Positions 9,569-23,560 of a stretch of DNA of 29,047 nucleotides are shown here, piece by piece. Made by a program: the position numbers and the translations under genes. The DNA is taken from IMG/VR virus record IMGVR_UViG_3300017706_002133, positions 1 to 29,047 of that record. One strand, given 5' to 3'. A model generated the notes under the pieces. It had not been told where the DNA came from. It worked only from the letters and a program-made list of their open reading frames with translations, and made no database searches. Origin of the DNA: a virus. Within the stretch, counting starts at the first letter, position 1; every line of letters starts with the position of its first letter.

Positions 9569-10192
9569 ATGAAAATAAGTTATGCAATAACGGTATGTAA
9601 TGAATATGAAGAAATTCAGAAACTAATATCTACTCTTATGTTAAATATAAGAGAAGAGGATGAAGTTATAGTACTATTTGATAAGCAAGCTGGTACGGAA
9701 CAAGTTTGGGATTATTTAGTTGGATTACAAACTCAGGATTTAATAAAAGCTTATACCGAATCTTTTAAAAATCATTTTGCTGATTGGAAAAATAAATTAA
9801 CTGAGTATTGTACTGGAGATTATATATTTCAAATAGATGCTGATGAAATCCCACATGAATCTTTAATTGATAATTTACCTTATATATTAGAATCTAACCC
9901 CAATAATGAAGTTTATTTAGTCCCTAGAGTAAATACAGTAGAAGGATTAACTATAGAACATATTAATAAATGGGGATGGAAAGTAGATGATAAAGGCTGG
10001 GTTAACTACCCAGACTACCAATGGAGAATTTGGAAAAATAAATCTGAAATCAAATGGAAAAATAAAGTACATGAGGTTTTAGAAGGACATAAAACATATT
10101 CTACATTACCTCCTCAAGAAGAATTATCTTTATATCACCCAAAAACAATAAAAAAACAAGAAAAACAAAATTCATATTATGAAACACTCTAA
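9569..10192 (+). CDS. GT2-like glycosyltransferase, short
   Basis: 207 residues with a GT-A fold. KISYAITVCNEYEEIQKLI is the family-2 start, where the nucleotide-binding Asp/Glu loop follows the first strand. EEDEVIVLFDKQ is the second strand, and DYIFQIDADEIP holds the DXD metal site (D-A-D). The tail carries WRIWKNKSEIKWKNKVHEVLEG, with the Trp/His-rich region often found in lipooligosaccharide glycosyltransferases of the WaaE/KdtX kind. It would add a sugar, using a metal-bound nucleotide sugar. The end overlaps the next gene by 14 bases. Donor unknown. Confidence 0.85.
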   Translation: MKISYAITVCNEYEEIQKLISTLMLNIREEDEVIVLFDKQAGTEQVWDYLVGLQTQDLIKAYTESFKNHFADWKNKLTEYCTGDYIFQIDADEIPHESLIDNLPYILESNPNNEVYLVPRVNTVEGLTIEHINKWGWKVDDKGWVNYPDYQWRIWKNKSEIKWKNKVHEVLEGHKTYSTLPPQEELSLYHPKTIKKQEKQNSYYETL

Positions 10193-11336
10193 AAAAGTTT
10201 GGTATGCTCCCAATAGATTAGAAGCTTATGGGGAAAAAGAAATTAAAGCAGTAGAAAAAAGCCTTAGAGATGGTTGGTTAGCTGGATTTGGACCAAGTAC
10301 TATAAAGTTTGAAAAGAAAATTGCTAAAGAATTTGGTAAAAAATATGGTGTTTTTGTTAACTCGGGTTCATCCGCTTGTTTACTTGCTATAGCAGCTTTA
10401 GATTTACCTAAGGGATGTAAAATAATAACCCCATCCCTTACATTTTCTACTACATTAGCCCCAATTATACAACTAGGTTATAAACCTATATTTATAGATT
10501 CTAATTTAACCTCTTATGTTCCTACAGTAGAAGATATTTTAGATAAAATAACTCCTGAAGTTAAAGCTATAATGGTACCTAATTTAATAGGTAATAAGCC
10601 AGATTGGGCCTTATTAAAAGCCGGATTAGAGATTTTAGGTAGAAAGGATATTTTTGTAATTGAAGACTCAGCTGATACTATAACATATACAAAAGAATCA
10701 GATGTTTCTACAACTAGTTTTTATGCTTCTCATGTTATAACAGCTGGTGGAATGGGAGGAATGGTAATGTTTAATGATGAAAAACATGTTAAAAAAGCAC
10801 TACAGTATAGAGATTGGGGTCGTATTGGTGATAATAGTGAAAACATGGATGAAAGATTTGCTCATGACGTTGATGGTATTCCTTACGACTATAAGTTTTT
10901 ATATGGGGTTTTAGGGTATAATATGAAATGTAGTGAAATGAGCGCTGCGTTTGGTTTAGTCCAATTAGAACGTTTTCAAACATTTAAACAAAAACGTAGA
11001 GATAATATTGAACGTTATCTAGAAAATTTAAAAGATGTTAAAGAATTAATACTACCAGATGATAGTATTAAACCAAATTGGTTAGCTATACCTTTTCAAA
11101 CAAAACGTAGATTAGAACTACTAACCTTTTTAGAAAATAACAATATACAAACACGAGTTACATTTGCAGGTAATGTTACTAGACATCCTATTTATAGAGA
11201 ATATCTACAAGATTTTAAAAATGCAGATGCTGTTATGGAAAATGGATTCTTATTAGGGGCTCACCATGGAATGGATTTAGAAGACGTTGATTATGTTTGT
11301 AATAAAATAAAAGAATTTTTTGGGTATGTCAAATAA
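10179..11336 (+). CDS. DegT/DnrJ-fold PLP/PMP enzyme with His at the lysine position (ColD/RfbH-like sugar 3-dehydratase)
   Basis: 385 residues with the full aminotransferase fold: GWLAGFGPSTIKFEKKIAK at the start, NSGSSACLLAIAAL (phosphate loop), VIEDSADTI (Asp for the pyridine nitrogen) and YNMKCSEMSAAFGLVQLERF. The active-site stretch reads TSFYASHVITAGGMGGMV. By alignment to the SFHPTKNLTTGEGG motif of sugar aminotransferases, the Schiff-base Lys is His185. Only dehydratase-type members, such as ColD (GDP-4-keto-6-deoxymannose 3-dehydratase, His188) and RfbH/E1, have His here; they remove the C3 hydroxyl to make 3,6-dideoxy sugars. The clustered cysteines I would expect for the E1 2Fe-2S site are not apparent, which favours the ColD type. 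The GEGG is altered to GGMGG. It overlaps both flanking genes. Confidence 0.82.
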   Translation: MKHSKKVWYAPNRLEAYGEKEIKAVEKSLRDGWLAGFGPSTIKFEKKIAKEFGKKYGVFVNSGSSACLLAIAALDLPKGCKIITPSLTFSTTLAPIIQLGYKPIFIDSNLTSYVPTVEDILDKITPEVKAIMVPNLIGNKPDWALLKAGLEILGRKDIFVIEDSADTITYTKESDVSTTSFYASHVITAGGMGGMVMFNDEKHVKKALQYRDWGRIGDNSENMDERFAHDVDGIPYDYKFLYGVLGYNMKCSEMSAAFGLVQLERFQTFKQKRRDNIERYLENLKDVKELILPDDSIKPNWLAIPFQTKRRLELLTFLENNNIQTRVTFAGNVTRHPIYREYLQDFKNADAVMENGFLLGAHHGMDLEDVDYVCNKIKEFFGYVK

Positions 11337-17517: not shown

Positions 17518-18239
17518 ATTCACCATTAGTACTTTACACACATACGGATATGGAAGATGTATGGCCAATGTTTTTTGGCCAGTTTCAAAAATACAATAGT
17601 AATTCTACTAAAATTTATGTAGCCGTAAATAAACAAAGCCCTTTATTACCAGACAATTGTATCCCTATATTATATGATGATTCCATTCCATATACAGATA
17701 GATGGAAACAAATTTTACCTGAAATTAAAGAAGAAGTATTCATGTTTTTACATGAGGATATGATTTTATTTAATAAACCTAAATTTAATTATATTGAAAG
17801 ATATTATAATTTAGTTAAAGATAAAAAAGTAGAATCTATAAAAATGATTTATGTGCCGTCTAATTTAATTGGAGGGAGTTTAGGTTTTACAGGAGATATG
17901 GTTTCGGATATAGATGATACTCTTATTACTAATGAATTTTCTCAATTCTCAATCCAACCAACTATTATATCCAAAACATCATTTAATTCTATACTTGATA
18001 GTGTAGGGTCTTTAAATATTTGGGATTTTGAAATGGCAGTTAAAAATAATTTTAAATCTTATATGGTAAAATTAGGAGGTGAAGTTAAAAGGGGATTATT
18101 TCATTGTGATAGTATTATTTTTCCTTATATTGCTACTGCCATAAGTAAAGGAAAATGGAATACCAGTGAATATAAAAAAGAATTAAGTATTTTCTTTAAA
18201 GAATATAATATAAACCCTAATATAAGAGGAGAAGTATGA
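17508..18239 (+). CDS. Probable GT-A-like glycosyltransferase
   Basis: 243 residues. SPLVLYTHTDMEDVWPMFF is a strand and acceptor-loop start; KIYVAVNKQSPLLPDNC is the second strand, EVFMFLHEDMILFNKP places His-Glu-Asp at the usual DXD position, and NIWDFEMAVKNNF could give the catalytic acid. The layout is like GT-A enzymes, but the metal motif is changed from DXD to HED, so function is inferred. GSLGFTGDMVSDIDDTL is unlike any motif I know. The start overlaps the previous gene by 10 bases and the end overlaps the HAD-nucleotidyltransferase gene by 4. Confidence 0.55.
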   Translation: MGINSPLVLYTHTDMEDVWPMFFGQFQKYNSNSTKIYVAVNKQSPLLPDNCIPILYDDSIPYTDRWKQILPEIKEEVFMFLHEDMILFNKPKFNYIERYYNLVKDKKVESIKMIYVPSNLIGGSLGFTGDMVSDIDDTLITNEFSQFSIQPTIISKTSFNSILDSVGSLNIWDFEMAVKNNFKSYMVKLGGEVKRGLFHCDSIIFPYIATAISKGKWNTSEYKKELSIFFKEYNINPNIRGEV

Positions 18240-19597
18240 TTAAGTTAGTTATTTTTGATTTAGATGGTGTTTTAGTTGAGGCTAAAAATATTCATTTTGA
18301 TGCTCTTAATATGGCATTAGGAAAAGAATATGCTATTAGCTGGAATGACCACTTATCTATTTATGATGGTTTAAAAACTAACCAAAAGTTAAAAATATTA
18401 ACAGAACGTAAAGGACTACCAGTTAATTTTTATAAAGAAATTTGGGGGAAAAAACAAAAATTAACTTTATCTAAATTATCATCCTTAAAACCTAGTAAAA
18501 CATTACAATCAATTATGAATGCTTTAGTTGAAGATGGTTATAAAATTGCAGTATGTTCTAATTCAATTAGAAAAACAGTTTTAACAGTACTATCTAAATT
18601 AGGTATAATGGAATACATGGATTTAGTTATATCAAATGAAGATGTAAAAAATTCAAAACCACACCCAGAAATGTATTGGAAGGCGATATCAATGATGAGT
18701 TGTTTACCTGAAGAGACTTTGATTATAGAAGATTCTCCTTATGGATTACTTGCCGCCTCAAGGAGTAAGTCATATATTTTAAGGGTAAAAAATCCAAACG
18801 AAGTAACTTATACTAATATATTTAAAAAATTAAATGAAATAAATATGGGAGAAAAACAAACATCCCCTGCTTGGAGAGATGAAACATTAAATGTTTTAAT
18901 CCCCATGGCGGGAGCAGGTAGTAGATTTGAAAAAGCTGGTTATACTTTTCCAAAACCCCTAATTGAGGTAAAGAAAAAACCAATGATACAAGTAGTAGTA
19001 GAAAATTTAAATATAAAAGCTAATTTTATATATGTTGTACAAAAATCACATAGAGAAAAATATAATTTAGATGCCCTGTTATCATTAATTACTCCTGGTT
19101 GTAAAATAGTAGAAACAGAAGGAATGACCGAAGGAGCAGCTTGTACTGCATTATTAGCTAAGGATTACATAAATTCTAAAGCACCATTATTTTTTGCCAA
19201 CTCAGACCAATTTGTTGAATGGGATTCAAATGAATTTTTATATAAAATGAATGAAACGGATGCTGATGGTGGTATTGTTTCATTTACTGCTACTCACCCC
19301 AAATGGTCTTTTGCTAAAGTTAATGAACAGGGGTTAGTAACAGAAGTAGCTGAAAAAAAACCAATATCTAATATTGCTACTGTAGGATATTATTATTGGA
19401 AACATGGGTCTGATTTTGTAAATTATGCAGAACAAATGATTAAAAAAGATATTAGAGTAAATGGTGAATTTTATGTTTGCCCTGTTTTTAATGAGGCTAT
19501 CCTTGATAATAAACAAATTAGAACTTTTAATGTTAATGGAATGTGGGGTCTTGGAACCCCTGAAGATTTAAAATATTATTTAGAAAATTATGAATAA
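18236..19597 (+). CDS. Fusion: HAD phosphatase + sugar-phosphate nucleotidyltransferase
   Basis: 453 residues in two parts. Residues 1-200 form a HAD hydrolase of the beta-phosphoglucomutase type: FDLDGVLVEA (Asp8/Asp10 nucleophile pair), CSNSIRK (second motif), NSKPHPEMY (Lys141) and LIIEDSPYGLLAA (acid pair). Residues 218-453 form a nucleotidyltransferase: VLIPMAGAGSRFEKAGYTFPKPLIEV holds the GxGxRF-x-PKP nucleotide-binding motif, FFANSDQFVEW the metal-binding Asp, and FYVCPVFNEAIL the rest. The fused enzyme may shift or remove a sugar phosphate and then activate it with an NTP. The linker has an in-frame ATG at 18845 that could yield a separate nucleotidyltransferase. This is the main activation step visible in the island. 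Sugar and NTP unknown. Confidence 0.88.
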   Translation: MIKLVIFDLDGVLVEAKNIHFDALNMALGKEYAISWNDHLSIYDGLKTNQKLKILTERKGLPVNFYKEIWGKKQKLTLSKLSSLKPSKTLQSIMNALVEDGYKIAVCSNSIRKTVLTVLSKLGIMEYMDLVISNEDVKNSKPHPEMYWKAISMMSCLPEETLIIEDSPYGLLAASRSKSYILRVKNPNEVTYTNIFKKLNEINMGEKQTSPAWRDETLNVLIPMAGAGSRFEKAGYTFPKPLIEVKKKPMIQVVVENLNIKANFIYVVQKSHREKYNLDALLSLITPGCKIVETEGMTEGAACTALLAKDYINSKAPLFFANSDQFVEWDSNEFLYKMNETDADGGIVSFTATHPKWSFAKVNEQGLVTEVAEKKPISNIATVGYYYWKHGSDFVNYAEQMIKKDIRVNGEFYVCPVFNEAILDNKQIRTFNVNGMWGLGTPEDLKYYLENYE

Positions 19598-20287: not shown

Positions 20288-20740
20288 ATGATTTTAATAT
20301 CACATAGAGGAAATATTAATGGGCCTAATCCTAAATTGGAAAATAATCCTATTTACATTGATATGGCTTTATCCCAAGGATTTAATGTAGAAATTGATTT
20401 ATGGGTTTGTAAAAAAGAATTTTTTTTGGGTCATGATAAACCAACATATTTAGTTGAACTTCAATGGTTAGTAGATAGGGGATTATCTTTATGGATTCAT
20501 TGTAAATCTTTAGACACTATAGGATTTATAAAAGAATTAGAATATAAAAAGGGTTTAAAAGGTTTAAATTATTTTTGGCATCAAGAAGATGATGTTACTT
20601 TAACCTCTAAAGGGGTAATATGGGCATATCCTGGTAAACAACCCATAAAATATAGTGTCGCCGTAGACCCTGAAAGGTACAATGATAATACGTCTTCAGC
20701 ATACGCAGTATGTTCTGATTATATTAAAAATTATAAATAA
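20288..20740 (+). CDS. Minimal glycerophosphodiester phosphodiesterase-like protein (GDPD)
   Basis: 150 residues, versus about 230-250 for ordinary GDPD enzymes. The catalytic set is intact: SHRGN (His6, Arg7), VEIDLW (Glu35, Asp37) and FLGHDKPTY (His49, Asp50), the metal and acid-base residues of the family; LSLWIHCKS is a further barrel strand. The TIM barrel seems short, ending at YWAYPGK-like strands and a short tail. GDPD enzymes cut phosphodiester bonds in glycerophosphodiesters; here the substrate may be a phosphodiester-linked sugar or lipid. It follows the methyltransferase by 2 bases, and its stop is directly joined to the dehydratase start. Confidence 0.75.
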   Translation: MILISHRGNINGPNPKLENNPIYIDMALSQGFNVEIDLWVCKKEFFLGHDKPTYLVELQWLVDRGLSLWIHCKSLDTIGFIKELEYKKGLKGLNYFWHQEDDVTLTSKGVIWAYPGKQPIKYSVAVDPERYNDNTSSAYAVCSDYIKNYK

Positions 20741-21727
20741 ATGAAAAAAATAGTTTATATAACTGGTTGTTTTGGGTTTATAGGTAGCTATGTGACTCGA
20801 GAATGTTTAAAAAAAGGATGGCATGTTATGGGTGTGGACAAAATGACTTATGCTTATTTTCCTGATGTATATGATGAATTTATAAAACATCCAAATTTTA
20901 AATTTCAAAAGAAAGATATTAATGATTTAGAATTTTTACATGAATGTGATTATGTAATTAATACAGCAGCTGAAACCCATGTAGGAAATTCTATAGTTAA
21001 AAGTGAAGATTTTTTACATTCTAATGTAAATGGTGTACATAACTTACTTGAATTAATTAGGAATTATAGAGCAGAAAGTAGTAAAAAACCTATTTTATTA
21101 CATTTTTCAACAGATGAAGTATATGGGGATATTACAGACGGAGAGCATATAGAAACAGATATACTTAAGCCTTCTAACCCATACTCAGCTACAAAAGCTG
21201 CAGCTGACCAGTTAATTACAGCATGGAATCGTACTTATAATTTACCTTATATTATTATAAGACCAACTAATAACTATGGAGTGGGGCAATATGTAGAAAA
21301 GTTAATCCCTAAATCCATTAAATATTTAAGTCTGGGTAAAGAAATCCCTTTACATAATAATGGTACCCCAGTAAGAAATTGGTTGCATGCTCAAGACACT
21401 GCTAATGCTATAATTACTATCATTGAATCAGGGGTTAAAAATGAAATATATAATATATGTGGTGGTTTTGAACAAACCAATTTGGATACTGTTAATAAAA
21501 TTATTACATTATACCATGGTGAAGATGAATCATTAAAAACAACTTTTCCTTATTATAATGAGGATAAAAACCAATTTTTAAACTTATCTTACTCTAGACA
21601 GGGTCAAGATGTTAGATATGCACTTAATGATGATAAACTTAGATTATTAGGTTGGGAGCCTAAAAAAATATTTGATAAGGAATTGCCTGCTATAGTAGGT
21701 TATTATAAAAATAATTTTATTTGGTAA
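20741..21727 (+). CDS. RmlB-like NAD-dependent sugar 4,6-dehydratase
   Basis: 328 residues, extended SDR. ITGCFGFIGS is the GxxGxxG NAD-binding loop (Gly9, 12, 15). VINTAAETHVGNSI matches the AAExHVD box of dTDP-glucose 4,6-dehydratase. HFSTDEVYGD carries the TDE triad (Thr124, Asp125, Glu126) found in 4,6-dehydratases, and NPYSATKAAAD gives Tyr148 and Lys152. RPTNNYGVGQYVEKLIP and the NGTPVRNWLHAQD (Arg for the nucleotide, W) are also RmlB-like. The enzyme would make a 4-keto-6-deoxy sugar nucleotide, the usual input to a ColD/RfbH-type dehydratase such as that at 10179. It is not certain whether the base is dTDP, CDP, GDP or UDP. The next start overlaps its stop by one base. Confidence 0.9.
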   Translation: MKKIVYITGCFGFIGSYVTRECLKKGWHVMGVDKMTYAYFPDVYDEFIKHPNFKFQKKDINDLEFLHECDYVINTAAETHVGNSIVKSEDFLHSNVNGVHNLLELIRNYRAESSKKPILLHFSTDEVYGDITDGEHIETDILKPSNPYSATKAAADQLITAWNRTYNLPYIIIRPTNNYGVGQYVEKLIPKSIKYLSLGKEIPLHNNGTPVRNWLHAQDTANAIITIIESGVKNEIYNICGGFEQTNLDTVNKIITLYHGEDESLKTTFPYYNEDKNQFLNLSYSRQGQDVRYALNDDKLRLLGWEPKKIFDKELPAIVGYYKNNFIW

Positions 21728-22335
21728 TGAATAAATTAAAAAAACGTATATTAGAAATTGCTTATAAGCATAAACTATCACATTTAGGTTCATATCTATC
21801 AGCTTTAGATATAATAGATGAGATTTATAATACTAAAGACTCTGATGATATTTTTATATTATCATCTGGACATGCTGCTTTAGCTTTATATGTGGTATTA
21901 GAAAAATATGAAGGTAAAGATGCTGAACATCTATTCTTAAAATATGGAGGTCATCCCCATTTAGCAGAAGAAGATGGTATCTATTGTTCAACAGGTAGTT
22001 TAGGAACAGGTATTACTATTGGGGTTGGAAGAGCGTTAGCTAATAAAAACAGGAAAGTATATGTTTTAATTAGTGATGGTGAATGTGCTGAAGGGAGTAT
22101 TTGGGAATCGTTACGTTTTATCAAAGAACATAATATAGATAATATAGAAGTATATGTTAATATAAATGGTTATGCAGCTTATGATAAAGTAGATACTAAG
22201 TACTTATCAGATAGATTAAAGGTATTTTTACCCAAAATAAAATTAAAATACACATCAGTAAATCAAACTTCATTTTTAAAAGGAATTAATGCTCATTATC
22301 ATGTTATGAGTGAGGAAGATTATAAATCATTATGA
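21727..22335 (+). CDS. Transketolase N-terminal half (TPP-binding), compact split subunit
   Basis: 202 residues from the ATG at 21727, overlapping the previous stop by one base (TAATG); an in-frame TTG at 21721 is less likely. HLGSYLSALDIIDEIYN and FILSSGHAALALYVVLE match the TK start and SGHAS-type region; GHPHLAEEDGIYCSTGSLGTG is the GHP...STGSLGQG box; LISDGECAEGSIWESLRF gives the TPP/metal motif (usual GDGE-x-EGxxWEA, here SDGE); and VYVNINGYAAYD is the N-x-Gly end. Normal split TK N-halves are about 270 residues. It lacks several surface loops but keeps the TPP core. It pairs with the next gene by an ATGA overlap, and the two together may transfer two-carbon ketol groups. Confidence 0.85.
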   Translation: MNKLKKRILEIAYKHKLSHLGSYLSALDIIDEIYNTKDSDDIFILSSGHAALALYVVLEKYEGKDAEHLFLKYGGHPHLAEEDGIYCSTGSLGTGITIGVGRALANKNRKVYVLISDGECAEGSIWESLRFIKEHNIDNIEVYVNINGYAAYDKVDTKYLSDRLKVFLPKIKLKYTSVNQTSFLKGINAHYHVMSEEDYKSL

Positions 22336-22802
22336 GAAAACAATTTGCAAAATACTTACATGATGAAATGTCTAATAACGAAGACATCATATTAATGACT
22401 GGGGACTTAGGTTATGGTTTATGGGATCAAATTAAAATCGACTATCCAGATAGGTTTATTAATTTTTTATCATCTGAACAATTAATGTTAGGAGCAGCTA
22501 CAGGCATGGCATTAGAAGGAAAAATTCCTATTGTTTATTCAATTACCCCCTTTGTACTATATAGACCTTTTGAGTGGATTAGAAATTACTTAGATCATGA
22601 ACAAATTCCTGTTAAATTAGTAGGTGGCGGGAGAGATAAAGATTACGGTTATTTGGGTTTTTCACATTGGGGAGAAGAAGATATTGATATTTTATCTGTA
22701 TTTAAAAATATTCAATTAATGAAACCTGAAGAATTAGATTTGCATACATTTAAGACATTTATTCATAGTACAAAAGCTACTTATATAAATTTAAAAAGAT
22801 GA
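22332..22802 (+). CDS. Transketolase C-terminal half (pyrimidine domain only)
   Basis: 156 residues, against about 310 for a normal split TK C-half. ILMTGDLGYGLWDQIKIDYPDRFINFLSSEQ is the pyrimidine domain start, and SSEQLMLGAATGMALEG holds the catalytic Glu in the usual GI-x-E-x-x-M helix. PFVLYRPFEWIRNYLDHEQIPVKLVGGG is the F-x-x-RxxE-x-IR region and G(H/Y)xGxxH-like SHWGEED follows. The protein stops at the end of this domain, so the extra transketolase C-terminal domain is absent. It starts with ATGA within the N-half stop, indicating a coupled heterodimer. In standard TK the third domain is not needed for TPP binding, so activity is possible. Confidence 0.85.
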   Translation: MRKQFAKYLHDEMSNNEDIILMTGDLGYGLWDQIKIDYPDRFINFLSSEQLMLGAATGMALEGKIPIVYSITPFVLYRPFEWIRNYLDHEQIPVKLVGGGRDKDYGYLGFSHWGEEDIDILSVFKNIQLMKPEELDLHTFKTFIHSTKATYINLKR

Positions 22803-23560
22803 AAATATTAGTTACAGGTAAAAATGGGTATGTAGGAAAAAGTATTATAAGTAAGTTAAAAGGTTATAATGTTATAGGTGTAGGAAGAGATGATTTTGAT
22901 TTAAGTAATAGAAAACAAACTAGTAAATTTTTTAAAGACAAATATTTTGACTGTGTAATTCATACAGCTAACTCAGGAGGAAGTCGTTTATCTAAAGATG
23001 ATAGTGATGTTTTATTTAATAATATTTCTATGTTTAATAATTTATGTAATGAATTTTTAAACTATAATCATTTAATAAGTTTTGGATCGGGAGCTGAAAG
23101 AATGTATCCTACTGACCCCTATGGGTTAAGTAAAAAATTTATAAATGATGTTATTAAATCAGAAAATAAATTTACTAATATTAGAATTTTTGGGGTGTTT
23201 GATGAAAATGAATGGGATACTAGATTTATAAAATCTAATATAAAAAGATACATTAATAAAGAACCTTTAATTATTCATAAAAATAAATTTATGGATTTTA
23301 TTTATATGGATGATTTAATTACATTAATTGATTATGCAATTAAAAACCCATATTCTAAATTATTAGAAGCTAATTACCTTCAACCCTATAGCTTACTTGA
23401 TATAGCTTTATTAATAAATGAATTATCAACACATAAATGTGAAATAAAAGTAAAAAAAGAAGGATTAGATAACCCATACACTGGTGATTTAAACCAAATA
23501 AAGCTGCCTTATATAGGTATGGAAAAATCACTAAAAAAAGTATATGAAGCAATTAATTAG
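22799..23560 (+). CDS. NAD-dependent epimerase/reductase (short extended-SDR)
   Basis: 253 residues, shorter than usual extended SDRs (about 300-320). ILVTGKNGYVGKSII has the GxxGxxG loop (Gly7, 10, 13). VIHTANSGGS sits at the family AAxxG-type position, SFGSGAERMYPTDPYGLSKKF gives the Ser and the Tyr-x-x-x-Lys pair, and NIRIFGVF and FMDFIYMDDLITLIDYA match the WcaG/GDP-fucose-synthase-like C-half. A 4-reductase or epimerase for the 4-keto sugar made upstream would fit, as ColC follows ColD in colitose synthesis, but substrate is not shown. Start overlaps the transketolase C-half by 4 bases and the end overlaps the GT gene by 17 bases. Confidence 0.82.
   Translation: MKILVTGKNGYVGKSIISKLKGYNVIGVGRDDFDLSNRKQTSKFFKDKYFDCVIHTANSGGSRLSKDDSDVLFNNISMFNNLCNEFLNYNHLISFGSGAERMYPTDPYGLSKKFINDVIKSENKFTNIRIFGVFDENEWDTRFIKSNIKRYINKEPLIIHKNKFMDFIYMDDLITLIDYAIKNPYSKLLEANYLQPYSLLDIALLINELSTHKCEIKVKKEGLDNPYTGDLNQIKLPYIGMEKSLKKVYEAIN

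Follow-up and report, generated by a model that had tools for sequence, protein, structure and literature searches.

The window, that is, the whole 29,047-nucleotide stretch of DNA analysed here, is phage DNA, with genes for a clamp loader, GroEL, an exonuclease, a tail lysozyme and a DNA ligase; the full-length GroEL (541 aa) lies with a GroES-like protein at 510–2505 (nearest Flavobacterium phage immuto, 58.7%). Two genes on the + strand encode the halves of a minimal transketolase (mini-TK). The first, tkN (21727–22335; 202 aa from ATG), was identified from PF00456, AlphaFold2 and motifs as the ThDP-diphosphate/Mg-binding half, a minimal transketolase PP domain, and the second, tkC (22332–22802; 156 aa), from PF02779, AlphaFold2 and alignment to full-length halves as the pyrimidine-binding half, which stops at the end of the Pyr domain. 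The genes overlap at ATGA and lie exactly where a preliminary description of this DNA had placed two coupled ORFs of 202 and 156 residues (21727–22802); an in-frame TTG at 21721 would extend the tkN ORF by 2 aa, giving the 204-aa numbering used below. Pfam profile searches matched tkN to PF00456 (Transketolase_N, E=2e-9) and tkC to PF02779 (Transket_pyr, E=3e-13), with no match of either to PF02780 (Transketolase_C, the TKC domain) or to the TPP_enzyme_N/M/C architecture of the YerE-like type, and tkN scored 16.5 bits against PF00676 (E1_dh), under the cut-off of 22. By sequence comparison, the nearest solved structure for both halves is the Carboxydothermus split transketolase (6yak/6yaj). 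AlphaFold2 models, each half predicted alone from a 36-sequence alignment, reached pLDDT 95.4 and pTM 0.92 for tkN and pLDDT 95.5 and pTM 0.90 for tkC. The top PDB matches in Foldseek were 6yak_AAA for tkN (TMq 0.81) and 6yaj for tkC (TMq 0.76–0.81), with DXS matching the tkC model at 0.87, the N half thus finding TKs and the C half TK/DXS. The pair is a transketolase reduced to its cofactor-binding and pyrimidine domains.

The catalytic machinery of this reduced enzyme is conserved throughout the family. The ThDP/Mg motif SDGE-x2-EGS...N occupies 22075–22167 (+; D119 to N149, 204-aa numbering from the TTG at 21721), and the catalytic Glu (tkC E49, within SSEQ) is encoded at 22476–22478 (+) and aligns with the AEQ motif of 6yaj. 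Among 140 viral and cellular members, H21, H51, H78, D119, E124 and N149 of tkN and D25, E49, F74, R78, Y105 and H112 of tkC are invariant, and the equivalents of EcTK H26, H66, H100, D155, E160, N185 and E411 (EcTK numbering by our own mapping) are kept in 140/140. None of the donor-His, ThDP/Mg and catalytic Glu residues checked is missing from any of these sequences, which bears out the earlier statement that the TPP-binding, SDGE/EGS and catalytic Glu motifs are retained. Judged from the alignment, the TK phosphate site is kept in part only: Arg fills the R358-equivalent position in 135/140 sequences, and Arg or Lys that of R520 in 139/140, but Gly/Lys takes the place of S385 and, in the window, H461 aligns with Gly. 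At the D469-equivalent position, where the window has L, 72 of the 140 sequences have D and 52 have L, and loss of this Asp was rejected as a diagnostic mark because about half of the members retain it. H192-Y193 was likewise rejected as specific to the family, being the conserved His-Tyr of full-length split TKs in the alignment.

In the window, the gene order is dehydratase, tkN, tkC, SDR, each gene overlapping the next. The upstream gene (20741–21727, +) encodes an NDP-glucose 4,6-dehydratase of the dTDP-glucose type (TIGR01181, 294 bits; STDEVYG and YxxxK motifs), and the downstream gene (22799–23560, +) a short SDR reductase of cluster k4 (PF01370; GSGAE and YxxxK), in which motif inspection found no dehydratase TDE motif. 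Approximately 10 kb upstream of the pair lies a gene for an RfbH/ColD-type sugar 3-dehydratase (10179–11336, +) of the DegT fold, with His in place of the catalytic Lys (SFYASHVIT) and, on motif inspection, no Fe-S Cys motif; its best PDB match is 3bcx/3bb8 (CDP-6-deoxy-L-threo-D-glycero-4-hexulose-3-dehydrase; E=3e-55 for 3bcx), with ColD 3gr9 ranked after these (E=4e-36). The pair is therefore located with a 4,6-dehydratase, an RfbH-type 3-dehydratase and a reductase. A fusion of a beta-phosphoglucomutase-like HAD domain and a sugar nucleotidyltransferase domain at 18236–19597 may supply the NDP sugar. A 150-aa protein starting MILISHRGN (20288–20740), matching phrog_34507 and nothing in Pfam, is a recurrent neighbour of the TK pair (cluster 24; 9 viral loci).

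The pair is no peculiarity of this phage but is widespread. Scans of IMG/VR with the N half returned at least 117 loci, of which 97 were analysed (98 including the window), with a complete pair in all viral loci but one, on a truncated contig. Viral N halves span 200–248 aa and C halves 147–184 aa, the two genes overlap in 85 of 97 pairs, a count that includes the window, and in 58 they do so by exactly 4 bp, and dN/dS among close relatives is ~0.07–0.17; the 97 loci, the coupling and the low dN/dS together rule out a chance origin. Matches in INPHARED are only distant (at most 38% identity), so that the pair has no known carrier among cultured phages, and in PHROGs the family matches only families of unknown function. 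Two of the viral contigs with the pair, L042 and L044, are 220 and 357 kb long, a size that suggests jumbo phages. The family occurs on chromosomes of Patescibacteria and Omnitrophota as well, with several copies on long contigs, one of 1.09 Mb. Several of these loci (L111, L126, L128, L132 and others) share a compact operon of SDR, methyltransferase, tkN, tkC and an ArnC/PgfS-like GT2, near which RfbH is mostly absent.

Comparison with full-length split TKs (N about 270–295 aa, C about 300 aa) shows that, throughout the family, the C half terminates precisely where the Pyr domain does and that the N half lacks several loops, in agreement with the earlier observation that the third domain and several loops are absent. 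One segment of about 20–30 aa in the N half is kept in Patescibacteria and Omnitrophota (N about 240) and gone in phages, as well as in the Levyibacteriota loci L129 and L132. In the phylogenetic tree, the minis all group together, apart from the full-length forms (support 100). Sequences from Patescibacteria and Omnitrophota branch off at the base, and a single inner clade (99) takes in every viral mini along with a few phage-like MAG contigs. The 'cellular' contigs L105–L107, L110, L112 and L113 (Maricaulis, Thaumarchaeota, TMED MAG) have phage-like gene order and are nested among viral sequences, and are likely misbinned phage.

Across the mini-TK loci, the neighbours are nucleotide-sugar and glycosyltransferase genes, not the pentose-phosphate genes that a role in central carbon metabolism would lead one to look for. 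In 89/98 viral loci, a short SDR is encoded no more than 1.5 kb away, upstream if of family k3 and downstream if of family k4. A dTDP-type 4,6-dehydratase of the window's cluster lies within 6 kb in 60/98 and an RfbH-type enzyme within 6 kb in 40/98, the RfbH family being matched elsewhere on the contig in 12 of 39 further records, some of them weakly. In the phage RfbH proteins, His stands where the catalytic Lys would be, and most of them have a Cys motif such as a 2Fe-2S cluster would be expected to need. No RfbF exceeded the cut-off in 50 viral records and the encoded dehydratase is of the dTDP type, for which reasons a CDP-glucose route in phages was set aside.

The association was also surveyed from the RfbH side, in 90 phage loci with flanks of up to 10 kb; since a single-sequence RfbH scan recovered only 12 loci, an alignment-based scan was added. 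A ThDP carboligase is present in 67 of the 90, with exactly one type in 66 loci, two in 1 and none in 23. Split TKs occur in 24 loci (23 mini, 1 full-length type), adding to the co-occurrence with ColD-like genes that the preliminary description had suggested looking for. YerE-like enzymes of ~590 aa with TPP_enzyme_N/M/C occur in 30, their best PDB match being the YerE-like carboligase JanthE (8rph), and mini E1-like pairs (~211 + ~180 aa; E1_dh and Transket_pyr domains) in 14. The single full-length-type split TK (L182:5359-7166; 278 + 332 aa) keeps its third domain within a phage RfbH cluster. The E1-like pairs (E1-alpha-like and E1-beta-like; L203:13108-14280, and also in L166, L175, L178, L180, L206, L208, L213, L215, L229, L241, L244 and L248) lack a third domain and lie beside RfbH, dehydratase and SDR. 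Pairwise co-occurrence of carboligases across the 90 loci was observed once against about 16 expected. With relatedness only partly corrected for in the p-values of this survey, the deficit persists after dereplication at 75% RfbH identity (1 vs 8.4 expected, p<5e-5) and at 70% (1 vs 5.9, p=0.0009), and the k4 SDR occurs in 55/67 carboligase-bearing loci against 1/23 of the others (p=2e-11). This lone case lies at a contig end, where the contig starts inside the k4 gene. The k4 family accompanies all three carboligase types, and its tracking of the YerE-like and E1-like types is informative because the k4 model derives from TK loci. The minimal split TK, the YerE-like enzyme and the E1-like pair thus fill one genetic slot in phages.

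The strongest sign that the mini-TK and YerE serve the same kind of function is a natural swap, in which a cassette of YerE-like gene and k4 SDR (L161:7375-9956) is exchanged for one of tkN, tkC and k4 SDR (L163:3608-5575). On one flank, the DNA of the two contigs matches at 97% identity for 2.9 kb; on the other, RfbH plus dehydratase match at 96% (RfbH itself 97.8% identical). The two k4 SDRs share 39% identity. The RfbH tree implies at least 11 changes of TK and YerE state. This replacement of YerE-like genes points to carboligation onto the ketone of an NDP-deoxysugar.

It also speaks against reading the pair as a trimmed ordinary transketolase, either a metabolic AMG for the pentose phosphate or nucleotide metabolism of the host or a source of a free sedoheptulose-type precursor, which we consider very improbable. 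The TK homology is clear, and two metagenome surveys place viral transketolases, which may or may not belong to the mini family, in C1 metabolism (PMC8319345, PMC8306916). However, the gene context lacks pentose-phosphate functions, the mini-TK is exchanged with YerE-like enzymes, and 18 of 20 Patescibacteria and Omnitrophota genomes with the mini pair encode other TKC-domain proteins, so that the pair is unlikely to be the sole transketolase of its cellular carriers; on these three grounds the central-carbon reading was rejected. Of the two outcomes raised in the preliminary description, two-carbon transfer to a keto sugar is accordingly well supported by the RfbH/ColD-type gene and by the YerE-like and E1-like replacements, and the sedoheptulose-type precursor finds no support.

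From the gene company of the pair, and by analogy with YerE, we infer a function and with it a putative assembly, donor, acceptor, order of steps, product and destination. The mini-TK is probably a hydroxyacetyl transferase that branches an NDP-4-keto-6-deoxysugar to give a 4-C-(1,2-dihydroxyethyl) sugar nucleotide. In this scheme, tkN and tkC would form a two-chain ThDP/Mg enzyme, probably alpha2beta2, and the 4,6-dehydratase would supply the 4-keto-6-deoxy sugar, often converted by the RfbH/ColD-type 3-dehydratase into the 3,6-dideoxy form. A ThDP-bound dihydroxyethyl carbanion would arise from a ketose donor or hydroxypyruvate and attack the C-4 ketone of the NDP-4-keto-6-deoxy (often 3,6-dideoxy) hexose, to which the two-carbon hydroxyacetyl (glycolaldehyde-level) unit would thereby pass. 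The adjacent k4 SDR would then reduce the ketone of the new branch, and the branched sugar nucleotide would be used by the many glycosyltransferases of the phage.

RfbH is not nearby in about half of the viral loci and in most Patescibacteria loci, and the acceptor may therefore differ at many of them. The TK pair might even have a different ketone of the pathway as its target, or work ahead of the dehydratases (for instance on a non-deoxy keto sugar from the SDR), in which case RfbH would contribute to a separate sugar within the same glycan. The Patescibacteria operon, mostly without RfbH or dehydratase nearby, and the many phages that have a k3 SDR and no RfbH are consistent with this, but we regard it as unlikely, as a single operon of overlapping genes unites the pair with the dehydratase and the k4 SDR in the window's clade, and RfbH loci use one ThDP enzyme near-exclusively.

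The donor is the other point on which readings diverge. H100 of TK, which is Phe in DXS, controls pyruvate use and steers the enzyme away from pyruvate (PMC7661550), and a hydroxyacetyl donor is predicted for the mini-TK because the equivalent His is invariant (140/140). The same branching with pyruvate or another 2-keto acid as donor, giving an acetyl-type branch as with YerE or AviB1/B2, would fit the swapping of the mini-TK with YerE-like and E1-like enzymes in shared cassettes beside the same SDR family, and the partial loss of the TK phosphate site. Set against it are this invariant His, in contrast to the Phe of the pyruvate-using DXS, and the apparent retention of three enzyme types by phages, which makes more sense if the branches differ; we judge it distinctly unlikely.

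For hydroxyacetyl transfer in its fuller form, we see the chances as evenly balanced: phages would maintain an exchangeable slot for two-carbon deoxysugar branching that accommodates three ThDP types, one of them a minimal, naturally ketone-accepting TK. This TK, devoid of the third domain, would produce a branched C8 sugar (3,6-dideoxy, bearing a dihydroxyethyl arm), and its family would have been shared between phages and Patescibacteria/Omnitrophota. If right, this would provide many testable examples of a ketone-accepting transketolase, an activity proposed but never shown according to a 2025 review (PMC12247030), and a natural TK working without its third domain. Viral 'transketolase' genes filed under carbon metabolism could then be sugar-coat tailoring genes, and phages a reservoir of branched-sugar chemistry in which three enzyme types swap in one slot. 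The preliminary description knew of no phage role of this kind, and our search of literature available without subscription likewise found no paper describing the mini-TK family in phages.

Three ThDP superfamilies are described as accepting ketones, namely decarboxylase, aKADH2 and TK, the TK case being proposed only, for miharamycin and amipurimycin (PMC12247030); phage loci hold all three types in one genetic slot. Split TKs proposed for sugar branching comprise 13 putative cases, all from Streptomycetes and none characterised in vitro (PMC12247030), and the miharamycin/amipurimycin enzymes (section 2.3 of that review) differ from the phage pair, by description only, in being neither mini nor viral. 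The Carboxydothermus hydrogenoformans enzyme ChTK (6yaj/6yak; PMC7661550) resembles the mini-TK in carrying PP and Pyr on two coupled genes with common ThDP, Mg and donor-His motifs, but its 341-aa C chain retains the TKC domain, its N chain has 309 aa, and it was tested on simple aldehydes, without a sugar-nucleotide context. With pyruvate as donor, YerE attaches a C2 unit at C-4 of CDP-3,6-dideoxy-4-keto-glucose, and ketoreduction of its product is the proposed origin of C-4 hydroxyethyl branches (PMC12247030; PMC4753412). YerE, ErwE and JanthE share with the mini-TK the apparent slot beside RfbH, 4,6-dehydratase and short SDR, and form a ThDP-dependent C-C bond to a 4-keto-3,6-dideoxy sugar, the reaction proposed here for the mini-TK, but they are single ~590-aa acetolactate-synthase-like chains (PF02776+PF00205+PF02775) of the decarboxylase superfamily, with 2-keto acid donors and another fold arrangement. 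AviB1/AviB2 and other alpha-keto-acid-dehydrogenase-type pairs likewise consist of two small subunits with a proposed role in two-carbon attachment to sugars, and phage E1-like mini pairs of this type occupy the same slot as the mini-TK, from which they differ in belonging to the E1 (PF00676) family and in the pyruvate donor proposed for AviB1/AviB2.
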